Assembly (NCBI GenBank): GCA_002716945.1
Contig: PBCF01000003.1
Span: 18,937 to 82,936 of the forward strand
DNA length: 64,000 nt
Reading direction: 5' to 3'
DNA from: Gammaproteobacteria bacterium
Lineage (GTDB): Bacteria; Pseudomonadota; Gammaproteobacteria; GCA-002705445; GCA-002716945
The notes beneath the pieces were generated by a model that did not search any database, had not been told where the DNA came from, and saw only the letters and a program-made list of their open reading frames with translations. The translations under genes and the position numbers were made by a program. Of this stretch, positions 22,160 through 25,249 are shown piece by piece (position 1 is the stretch's first letter; the number at the start of each line of letters is the position of its first letter).

Positions 22160-22494
22160 CAGAAAATATATTTGAGAAAATTATAAAAAAAGAAATACCA
22201 GCAGATATTATTTATGAGGATGATTTGGTTTTGGCTTTCAATGATATTAGTCCTCAAGCACCAACACATATACTTGTTATCCCAAAAAAAAATATACCTA
22301 AACTATCGGACAGTAAAAATGAAGATAAAGATTTATTAGGTACCTTATTGCTAACTGCAAAAAAGATTGCAAAAGATAATAATATTAACAATTACAGATT
22401 GGTTATAAATAATGGCAGTGAAGCTGGACAAACCGTTTTTCATTTACATATTCATATCTTAGCAGGGAGAGATTTTGGTTGGCCACCTGGTTAA
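22156..22494 (+). CDS. hinT: HIT family protein (HinT-like)
   Basis: IFEKIIKKEIPADIIYEDDLVLAFNDISPQAPTHILVIPKK and HLHIHILAGRDFGWPPG. Confidence 0.93.
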   Translation: MTENIFEKIIKKEIPADIIYEDDLVLAFNDISPQAPTHILVIPKKNIPKLSDSKNEDKDLLGTLLLTAKKIAKDNNINNYRLVINNGSEAGQTVFHLHIHILAGRDFGWPPG

Positions 22495-23267
22495 TTCCTC
22501 TTACCAAAAAAAGACATAATTTTATCAATCAAATCCTGTAATGGATTGATACGTAATTTTTCTGATTCTACTGCTATTTCATCAATACACTTTACTGATC
22601 TAGCAGGATATGGTCCATGTGAAGTCTCTTGATATAGAGCAATCACATCAAAACCTTCCTCAAGAGTATGTCCTATTTCAAAATTCTCTTCACGTGATTG
22701 AACTTGTCCTTTCATTAAAGTTGGCATTTTAGCAAGATACATAGGTTCGCAATCATTATCTTTTGCTTTTTGCACAATATTTTCATTTACAATTTTTTTT
22801 GAATCAATTTCTATCATTGCGAAATTAGAATTTTTATAAAATTCTTCTAAATCAGATGTATCGTCATCCTCTTGCACCCTAACTCCTACTTGAATTTGAT
22901 CGCCAAGCTGATTTTTAGCATCAATTATTTTTTCTAGTCCTTGTTTTTTCATGACAGTAAAATATTTAGGCTGAATCTCTTTAGCAAAATTGATATATGA
23001 TGTCCATTCTTCTAAATTTACATTATCTGTATCTAAATAAATATGAGTTTTGCAATCTCTTTTTTTTGATTCTTTTCTAAAATTCTCTACGCGTTGTTTA
23101 GATATATCTGATCCATCACTAAATAATATTCTTGCTATATCTACACCATCTGTCCACTGTCTTGCTATTCCAGCTATTATCATGGTTTTTAATTCTTTCT
23201 CATCATCAGTGGAAGGTCCTAGAGTTGCAATTATCAAGCTTTGTCTATGTCGTTCTTTAGTGGCCAT
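22491..23267 (-). CDS. Pyruvate-kinase-like protein, shortened/divergent
   Basis: SLIIATLGPSTDDEKELKTMIIAGI..ARILFSDGSD and HTLEEGFDVIALYQETSHGPYPARSVKCIDEIAVESEK resemble pyruvate kinase N- and C-terminal motifs; only 258 aa. Confidence 0.65.
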   Translation of the reverse strand: MATKERHRQSLIIATLGPSTDDEKELKTMIIAGIARQWTDGVDIARILFSDGSDISKQRVENFRKESKKRDCKTHIYLDTDNVNLEEWTSYINFAKEIQPKYFTVMKKQGLEKIIDAKNQLGDQIQVGVRVQEDDDTSDLEEFYKNSNFAMIEIDSKKIVNENIVQKAKDNDCEPMYLAKMPTLMKGQVQSREENFEIGHTLEEGFDVIALYQETSHGPYPARSVKCIDEIAVESEKLRINPLQDLIDKIMSFFGKRN

Positions 23268-23342: not shown

Positions 23343-24137
23343 ATGATTGAAGCACTACCAAATATTCAGACCATATTTTTTATAATGATATTTATTATTA
23401 TGTACATTATTGAATTTTATTGTCCGAATAGAATATGGCAAACAGCTAGATATAAAAGACTTTTCACTCATCTCATAGTTGCTATTATTAATTCAATAAT
23501 TTTATACATACCTAGATTGATATTCTTGATACCCATTTTACTTTTAATAGAGGAAAAACAACTTGGTTTGTTAAATAACATGGATCAATTTTATTTTATA
23601 GAAATATTATTAGGTTTTCTTTTTTTTGATTTTGCATATTATTGGTGGCATAGATTCAATCACACAATACCTTTTTTATGGAGGTTTCATAGTTTTCATC
23701 ACTTAGATACTCATTTAGATGTAACAACATCATTAAGATTTCATTTTGGTGAGCTTGTACTGTCGGTTATATATGATATTTTTTTGATTATTATAATTGG
23801 CGCGCCACTGGAACTGTATATCTTTTATAAAATCATTTTGACTTCATCAAGTCATTTCCATCATTCTAATATTAAACTTCCTGAGAGAATAAACGATTTA
23901 TTAATATATTTTATAGTAACACCTAAGTATCATACAAATCATCATACAGTTGAAAAAAATACAAGGAATGCAAATTATACTTCAATCTTTACTATATGGG
24001 ATCGTTTATTCTTAACGTGTAAAGACTCTAACGATGCAGATAGAACACTGATGGGATTAGAAAACAGAGATTTAGAGCTTGATTTAGTTAAGAGTCTAAA
24101 ACATCCATTTCAAAAAAAATCAAATGAATTACTATAA
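23343..24137 (+). CDS. Sterol desaturase / fatty-acid hydroxylase family protein
   Basis: His clusters HRFNH, HSFHHLDTH, HFHHSN, HTNHH in a multi-TM protein. Confidence 0.87.
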   Translation: MIEALPNIQTIFFIMIFIIMYIIEFYCPNRIWQTARYKRLFTHLIVAIINSIILYIPRLIFLIPILLLIEEKQLGLLNNMDQFYFIEILLGFLFFDFAYYWWHRFNHTIPFLWRFHSFHHLDTHLDVTTSLRFHFGELVLSVIYDIFLIIIIGAPLELYIFYKIILTSSSHFHHSNIKLPERINDLLIYFIVTPKYHTNHHTVEKNTRNANYTSIFTIWDRLFLTCKDSNDADRTLMGLENRDLELDLVKSLKHPFQKKSNELL

Positions 24138-24145
24138 AATAAGAA

Positions 24146-24172
24146 ACCCCCTCTTCCTTGAGGAGGTATTTT
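24146..24172 (+). terminator. Probable intrinsic terminator after the desaturase gene
   Basis: ACCCCCTC-TTCCTT-GAGGAGGT (one mismatch) followed by ATTTTGT. Confidence 0.65.
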
Positions 24173-24373: not shown

Positions 24374-24401
24374 TTGACATAACTAATTGATTTTGTTTAA
24401 A
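24374..24401 (+). promoter_or_regulatory. Putative sigma70 promoter of the riboswitch transcript
   Basis: TTGACA (24374-24379), 16-bp spacer, TTTAAA (24396-24401); predicted TSS just before aptamer 1. Confidence 0.55.
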
Positions 24402-24408
24402 TGAATTC

Positions 24409-24493
24409 ACGCCGATTTGAACATCAGCTTGCCGGCGTAAAATAGCTAAAGCGATCGGTAACCATCATAGCTTTAGCGTGATGGTTTTTTTTT
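24409..24493 (+). ncRNA. SAM-II/SAM-V-superfamily aptamer 1 with expression-platform terminator
   Basis: P1 ACGCCG(24409-24414)/CGGCGT(24433-24438), loop ATTTGAACATCAGCTTGC, 3' AGCTAAA(24444-24450); terminator AACCATCA(24460-24467)/TGATGGTT(24479-24486)+T tract; antiterminator GCTAAAGC(24445-24452)/GCTTTAGC(24470-24477). Confidence 0.75.
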
Positions 24494-24549
24494 GGCATTT
24501 GATCTTCAGCTTGTGTGCCAGACCGATCAGGTAAAACACTAAAGAGGAG
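24493..24549 (+). ncRNA. SAM-V-like aptamer 2, overlapping the Shine-Dalgarno
   Basis: P1 TGGCA(24493-24497)/TGCCA(24516-24520), loop TTTGATCTTCAGCTTGTG; 3' CACTAAAGAGGAG overlaps SD GAGGAG (24544-24549), 6 nt before ATG at 24556. Confidence 0.75.
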
Positions 24550-24555
24550 TACAAA

Positions 24556-24939
24556 ATGAAAATTTTTAAAGATGGTATATTCGCAAATATTGCATCCCAT
24601 ACCAGCCTTTTCTCTCAAAATAAATCTCTTGTAGAGATATTTCTTTTGTCGAGTAGCTTAGGGGCTAATATCCCATTAGTGCAGTTAAATAACGACATAA
24701 GGGAATACTGCTGCGAGAATAAGGTTGATTGGTCTATTAAGAACCTTTCATCAACGGTAAATATAGGTAAAGAAAACACACATTGCTACGTTATCAAATT
24801 TAATACAGGTATCAGTAGTAATGTCGCAGATGATTTGATTTACAAACTAGCTTGTCACCTCGGTTTGAAATATAAATGTGTCCAATGCGCTTATCATTAT
24901 CGTGATAAAGAGAGAAAGATATCATTACATTACGATTAA
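24556..24939 (+). CDS. Uncharacterised 127-aa protein downstream of tandem SAM-type riboswitch
   Basis: ATG with strong SD GAGGAG; MKIFKDGIFANIASHTSLFSQNK...LGLKYKCVQCAYHYRDKERKISLHYD; no family recognised. Confidence 0.75.
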   Translation: MKIFKDGIFANIASHTSLFSQNKSLVEIFLLSSSLGANIPLVQLNNDIREYCCENKVDWSIKNLSSTVNIGKENTHCYVIKFNTGISSNVADDLIYKLACHLGLKYKCVQCAYHYRDKERKISLHYD

Positions 24940-24961: not shown

Positions 24962-25210
24962 TTATTTGCCTTTTGTATATTTTTTTCGGAACTTGGCGAT
25001 TCTACCTTCTTTTGTCTCAATTCTACCTTTACCGGTATAAAAAGGATGAGATTCTGAAGAAGTTTCGACCTTGAATACTGGGTATTCTTTACCATCTTCA
25101 TATTTCATCTTTTCTTTAGGGTTAAGAGTTGAAGAGATCAAGAAGCTCTTATTACATGAGACATCATGAAATATAATTGGTTGATATTCTGGATGTGTGT
25201 CCTTTTTCAT
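24962..25210 (-). CDS. rpmE2: 50S ribosomal protein L31 type B
   Basis: MKKDTHPEYQPIIFHDVSCNKSFLISSTL..YPVFKVETSSESHPFYTGKGRIETKEGRIAKFRKKY; lacks the CxxC zinc site. Confidence 0.93.
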   Translation of the reverse strand: MKKDTHPEYQPIIFHDVSCNKSFLISSTLNPKEKMKYEDGKEYPVFKVETSSESHPFYTGKGRIETKEGRIAKFRKKYTKGK

Positions 25211-25249
25211 AGTCTGATAATATAACATATAATTGAATAATAAAAAGAT

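Follow-up and report, generated by a model that had tools for sequence, protein, structure and literature searches.

The window, a 64,000-nucleotide stretch of gammaproteobacterial DNA, encodes an orphan protein of 127 aa directly behind a tandem SAM-II/SAM-V leader. On comparative evidence, the association of this known kind of RNA switch with a new protein family is strong and exclusive. What is new is not the type of riboswitch but the family that it targets and the wiring. We consider it probable, with some reserve, that the locus is a two-level SAM-repressed single-gene unit and that it encodes a small protein, of a ligand-binding or thiol kind, with a part in methionine/SAM homeostasis. 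The orphan protein would most likely act there as a low-SAM response protein, and the leader association lends support to the earlier note's suggestion of a new protein of sulfur, methyl or SAM homeostasis. The features of the locus are collected in Table 1.

Table 1. Features of the riboswitch-controlled locus, in window coordinates.
Feature	Position	Strand	Details
Upstream neighbour, fatty-acid hydroxylase/sterol desaturase family	23343-24137	+	PF04116, Pfam E 4.6e-27
Terminator of the fatty-acid hydroxylase gene	24146-24167		Follows the end of the hydroxylase gene
Sigma-70-like promoter	24374-24402	+	-35 TTGACA 24374-24379, 17-nt spacer, weak -10 TTAAAT 24397-24402; from sequence
SAM-II (SAM_alpha-type) aptamer	24409-24459	+	P1 24409-24414/24433-24438; P2 3' strand GCTAAAGC 24445-24452
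Antiterminator	24445-24477	+	GCTAAAGC (24445-24452) pairs with GCTTTAGC (24470-24477)
Long-range helix	24453-24528	+	GATCGG (24453-24458) with CCGATC (24523-24528)
Intrinsic terminator	24460-24493	+	AACCATCA (24460-24467)/TGATGGTT (24479-24486), then T9 (24485-24493)
SAM-V aptamer	24493-24549	+	P1 TGGCA (24493-24497)/TGCCA (24516-24520); P2 TTGTG/CACTAA
SAM-V pairing over the Shine-Dalgarno	24504-24549	+	CTTC 24504-24507 with GGAG 24546-24549
Shine-Dalgarno AGGAG	24545-24549	+	From sequence
ORF of the 127-aa protein	24556-24939	+	ATG start; orphan family; predicted b-a-bb-a-bb fold (AlphaFold)
rpmE2, type B ribosomal protein L31, convergent downstream	24962-25228	-	NCBIfam NF002462, 118 bits (cut-off 86)

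In the window the ORF forms a monocistronic unit, because it has a sigma-70-like promoter of its own, the upstream gene ends before its own terminator and rpmE2 is convergent. The earlier note had described it as the sole co-oriented gene behind a tandem SAM-type riboswitch with rpmE2 facing it, and the ORF, Rfam and NCBIfam results agree. The promoter was missed by a consensus scan that demands an A at the second position of the -10 element; TTGACA stands at the same distance in all orthologues with upstream sequence, and their -10 elements are mostly TGTAAT-like. From the placement of these elements, transcription is predicted to begin close to where the SAM-II P1 stem starts. Six nucleotides separate the AGGAG from the start of the ORF. 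The fatty-acid hydroxylase gene is the upstream neighbour also in the other loci with upstream sequence, and throughout the order it adjoins a gene for a truncated pyruvate-kinase-like protein (22491-23267 on the minus strand in the window; 258 aa), which retains only the N-terminal barrel part of PF00224.

The distribution of the leader was examined in 25 genomes of the gammaproteobacterial order to which the window belongs; the named relatives are MAGs and single-cell genomes of marine origin. The same leader stands directly before the ORF in each of the 17 orthologue loci read base by base, and also in a frameshifted assembly (L054 in genome G024), which answers in the affirmative the question raised earlier of whether homologues recur behind SAM riboswitches. 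The leader architecture is identical across the 16 loci that were aligned. A covariance model of the leader matches the window with an E value of 5e-35, at one real site alone, and the whole 1.09 Mb genome from which the window derives likewise has a single copy; other sites like CACTAAAGAGGAG with two mismatches were no more numerous than at the control level. Most genomes with an orthologue likewise have one leader copy by this model, adjoining an ORF of the 127-aa type. The exceptions are a duplicate in G012 that results from overlapping contigs, a leader in G021 that is cut by a contig end, and a few marginal matches. Comparison of the aligned loci establishes that the leader exists, that its helices are conserved and that it has a single detected target in the order, the orphan protein. 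A lone SAM-V-like leader was seen on a small contig of G012 (locus L079, G012:C7 976-3642) before an S-layer/repeat-like protein that starts MATINLSESNDI; this contig is possibly a contaminant.

A structured leader model also matches 142 of the 369 gammaproteobacterial genomes that were sampled, most of them at one site. The best-scoring matches outside the order, read singly, are lone SAM-II-plus-terminator leaders before metZ, metE or metN, in keeping with the earlier note's statement that SAM-II leaders usually precede methionine genes. The identities of metZ and metE were confirmed on one example each (metZ in L087, NCBIfam 693 bits). By this comparison, the order uses the same type of regulator with a second aptamer added and a different gene under its control.

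The leader is 141 nt long and consists, in order, of a SAM-II aptamer, an antiterminator/terminator and a SAM-V aptamer in which the Shine-Dalgarno is covered. It has the composition by which the tandem SAM-II/SAM-V (bi-mechanism) riboswitch is defined (PMC9481103), with SAM-II and a terminator first and SAM-V at the ribosome-binding site second on one transcript. Across the 16 aligned leaders, 94% of cells in the named helices are paired, and the P1 stems of both SAM-II and SAM-V as well as the terminator show compensatory changes. The mean column identity of the leader is about 80% at these 16 loci against 23-43% amino-acid identity to the window protein within the order; conservation is thus much higher in the RNA.

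The SAM-II half matches Rfam at 24399-24470 with 19.5 bits for SAM-II and 23.1 bits for SAM_alpha (RF01726, RF00521), under gathering thresholds of 44 and 36; the metN and metZ leaders of other gammaproteobacteria likewise fall just under Rfam gathering, at 35.3 and 31.5. The P1 stem and pseudoknot core are present as GAUUUGA...GCUUGC...GCUAAAG and are followed by the terminator. The first element of the core reads GATTTGA in the window and GTTTTGA in some relatives. The antiterminator, which is paired in 95% of cells in the 16 leaders, excludes both the SAM-II P2 and the terminator, and GCUAAAGC, a strand of the SAM-II pseudoknot, is complementary to GCUUUAGC within the terminator hairpin. 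The terminator stem is paired in 90-94% of cells and carries a compensatory C-G/U-A change in six sequences. The computed energies of antiterminator and terminator, -10.6 and -11.5 kcal/mol, are nearly equal, as a switch would need.

The strand opposite the leader (24377-24490, minus) matches RF02424 (Bp2_287, "Burkholderia sRNA"). The same family matches the strand opposite SAM-II metZ/metN leaders, at 1564-1689 of L087 with 36.1 bits and at 1472-1550 of L088; its scores outside L087 are 23.4 and 16.6 bits. RF02424 may be the reverse complement of a leader made of SAM-II and a terminator.

The SAM-V half matches Rfam SAM_V (RF01826) at 24484-24552 with 29.1 bits, below the gathering threshold of 41, and the relatives L008 and L016 score 39.6 and 37.8. 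Its P1 stem is paired in 100% of cells and shows a compensatory change. The P2a-type pairing over the Shine-Dalgarno is present in 16 of 16 leaders, in which CUUC, or CUCU in one genus, pairs with GGAG. The nucleotides of SAM-V that contact SAM are U8, U9, U10, A18, U19, U20, G21, U47, A48, A49 and A50 (PMC6061858), and the leader contains the H-type pseudoknot core with these nucleotides, as assigned by eye. By this assignment the equivalents of U9, U10, U19, U20, G21 and U47-A50 are invariant in all 16 leaders, the U8 equivalent is G except in one genus and the window, which have U, and the A18 equivalent is C in the window and A in one genus. The GATCGG/CCGATC helix joins the tail of SAM-II to the P3 loop region of SAM-V and is 100% paired in the 16 sequences. 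Its single variable pair changes from G-C to A-U in four sequences and to G-U in one. This long-range helix is suggestive but not proven, because it has one co-varying position and is partly shared with a local P3 hairpin.

From this architecture we infer a SAM-off logic. At high SAM, the SAM-II aptamer would capture the GCUAAAGC strand, the terminator would form, and transcription would stop within the leader. In transcripts that escape, the folded SAM-V aptamer would cover the Shine-Dalgarno. At low SAM, the antiterminator would form, the Shine-Dalgarno would be exposed and the 127-aa protein would be made.

The protein is encoded in 18 of the 25 genomes of the order, in four genera. Two genomes that are 90-92% complete, G010 and G013, have neither leader nor gene, so the gene either is not strictly essential or sits in assembly gaps. 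An orthologue was not found in the other sampled genomes of the class, all four matches in the class being of the same family. A phage, plasmid or viral origin was rejected: no homologue was found in the viral contigs, phages or plasmids searched, and 50 pattern matches in viral contigs were without the tandem leader.

The low identity of the proteins beside a much more conserved leader might be taken to mean that an orphan riboswitch here precedes a chance frame or the remains of a met gene. We regard this as scarcely credible and reject it on the evidence of selection and conservation. For most close pairs dN/dS is about 0.03-0.15, indicating strong purifying selection; non-synonymous change remains low where synonymous change is already saturated, a pattern expected of a real constrained gene and not of a decayed fragment. 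The length is kept at about 120-134 aa in four genera, and 13 alignment columns are invariant (M1, V42, R49, C53, I80, K97, G103, L104, K107, C111, I122, H125 and Y126). Poor conservation and descent from a decayed met gene were the two outcomes that the earlier note had said would speak against it, and both are contradicted, the one by the presence in 18 genomes under purifying selection, the other by dN/dS and the lack of any match to a met family. The note's emphasis on a CVQC (CxxC) motif did not hold up. The first Cys of CVQC is Ser in several orthologues, leaving C53 and C111 as the only invariant cysteines, and we rejected CVQC as a functional motif.

In some genera, a second conserved frame of 119 aa begins within the last part of the riboswitch-controlled ORF and overlaps it there (L051:8329-8688, L007, L009, L010, L012 and L054); the window lacks this frame. 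It matches no Pfam or NCBIfam family at cut-off, and from its position it is possibly translationally coupled to the riboswitch-controlled ORF.

The description of the protein as unrecognised also stands. It has no standout sequence match in Pfam, NCBIfam, PHROG or the PDB and no Pfam or NCBIfam match to the known methionine enzymes (MetH, MetE, BhmT, MmuM, MetY/MetZ and MTHFR), and a profile search of solved structures returned chance matches only. AlphaFold monomer models of two family members are of moderate confidence (pLDDT 66 and 68, pTM about 0.6), and both have the order beta-alpha-beta-beta-alpha-beta-beta, predicted to be a ferredoxin-like fold. The two best PDB matches of the window-protein model are the phage SAM lyase Svi3-3 (6ZM9/6ZNB; E 1.8e-4 and 2.1e-4, probability 1.00), with a TM score of about 0.4, and the SAM-AMP lyase 9GAB ranks ninth. 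With the second family member, SAM lyase appears only at ranks 20 and 42 (E 0.11 and 0.26). Ferredoxin-like folds are common.

These fold matches, together with a similar length, are what favour reading the protein as a genuine SAM lyase of the cell, like those of T3 and Svi3-3, converting SAM to MTA and homoserine lactone, a reading that we judge improbable. In SAM lyase three subunits with GlnB-like folds form a trimer, and the key residues of the Svi3-3 SAMase are G56-x-Y58, E69 and Q104 (PMC7877911). By eye, G56, Y58, E69 and Q104 have no conserved counterparts in the orphan-family alignment. Profile-profile comparison with seven phage SAMases gave a probability of at most 0.1%, and PF23780 was matched by none of 16 family members at E <= 10, while the positive control, T3 SAMase, reached 5.7e-42. 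The residues, the Pfam result and the profile comparison together led us to reject membership of the SAM lyase family, and a SAM-destroying enzyme produced only at low SAM would moreover be hard to rationalise. That the best fold match of the window-protein model agrees with the ligand of the riboswitch is attractive but weak, and we take it to favour a small GlnB-like ligand-binding protein and not a SAM lyase. Most likely, we infer, the product forms oligomers with a ferredoxin-like (GlnB/SAM-lyase-like) fold, and would sense or handle a compound of the methionine cycle and restore the supply of Met and SAM.

The methionine genes of the order bear on what the protein might supply. MetY-type enzymes occur in 25 of 25 genomes, and a representative scores as O-acetylhomoserine sulfhydrylase. 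The MetH/BhmT/MmuM S-methyltransferase family (PF02574) is found in only 3 of the 25 genomes, MTHFR (PF02219) in one and MetE-type proteins (PF01717) in none, and the few S-methyltransferase and MTHFR positives lie on small or foreign-looking contigs and may be contaminants. From this gene content the order appears to be essentially without MetH/BhmT/MmuM, MetE and MTHFR while keeping MetY. No SAM riboswitch precedes metY in the genome of the window or in eight relatives. A cobalamin-type MtgC/MtgD methionine synthase is known (PMC12478193), and methionine probably comes from direct sulfhydrylation, from uptake or from another route such as MtgC/MtgD.

The near absence of the known methionine synthases and MTHFR would suit a small methionine-supplying enzyme that replaces them, for example a thiol- or metal-dependent homocysteine methyltransferase or a partner of MetY, and so would the invariant C53, C111 and H125 and the control of metZ and metE by related SAM-II leaders elsewhere. 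We nevertheless hold it unlikely, as 127 aa is small, the fold searches gave no methyltransferase match, and MetY with methanethiol, uptake or a Mtg-type system are alternative sources. Slightly less likely still is a role in thiol/peroxide protection, in which the protein would be the functional equivalent of OsmC. In Ca. P. ubique, a SAM-V riboswitch lies upstream of a set of genes that includes osmC, and sulfur limitation strongly induces osmC (PMC5069961), a precedent to which the two invariant cysteines could be added; the orphan family shows no likeness to OsmC/Ohr in Pfam, NCBIfam or fold searches, and its Cys arrangement differs. A broader proposal, possible if doubtful, is that the orphan protein is a trans-acting element, whether a regulator or a new enzyme, that sustains Met/SAM supply without the classical synthases and MTHFR. 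If so, the riboswitch would work through a protein effector and not directly on met genes.

Riboswitches point to the metabolism of the genes under their control. With the same tandem leader at every orthologue and SAM-II before met genes elsewhere, a role in Met/SAM homeostasis is the natural reading of the orphan protein. When four genera keep a stringent, one-copy, two-level SAM-off switch before one and the same orphan protein, the guilt by association is unusually strong, and the protein becomes a good candidate for a component of methionine/SAM supply that has so far gone unrecognised in streamlined marine bacteria with small genomes.

Compared with known systems, the leader most resembles the tandem SAM-II/SAM-V riboswitch of bhmT (PMC9481103, PMC11508383), in which SAM-II also comes first and is followed by an intrinsic terminator, SAM-V controls the ribosome-binding site and the logic is SAM-off; the window leader differs in its host, a gammaproteobacterial order, and in its target, the orphan protein instead of bhmT. 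In the Pelagibacter tandem, the linker masks SAM-II according to one study (PMC11508383). The SAM-II leaders of metZ, metE and metN share a related aptamer core, the antiterminator/terminator layout and mostly one copy per genome with a match, but they have a single SAM-II before known met genes, whereas the window leader adds SAM-V and precedes an orphan gene. On the protein side, the Svi3-3/T3 SAMases (PF23780; 6ZM9, 6ZNB) provide the best fold match of the window-protein model, for which a ferredoxin-like fold is likewise predicted, and are of similar size; sequence and profile likeness are lacking, the key residues are not kept, and the orphan gene is cellular and, by its leader, SAM-repressed. 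The trimeric GlnB-like (PII/CutA) ligand-binding proteins show no sequence similarity that we could find, and have the same ferredoxin-like topology as that predicted for the orphan protein as a monomer.
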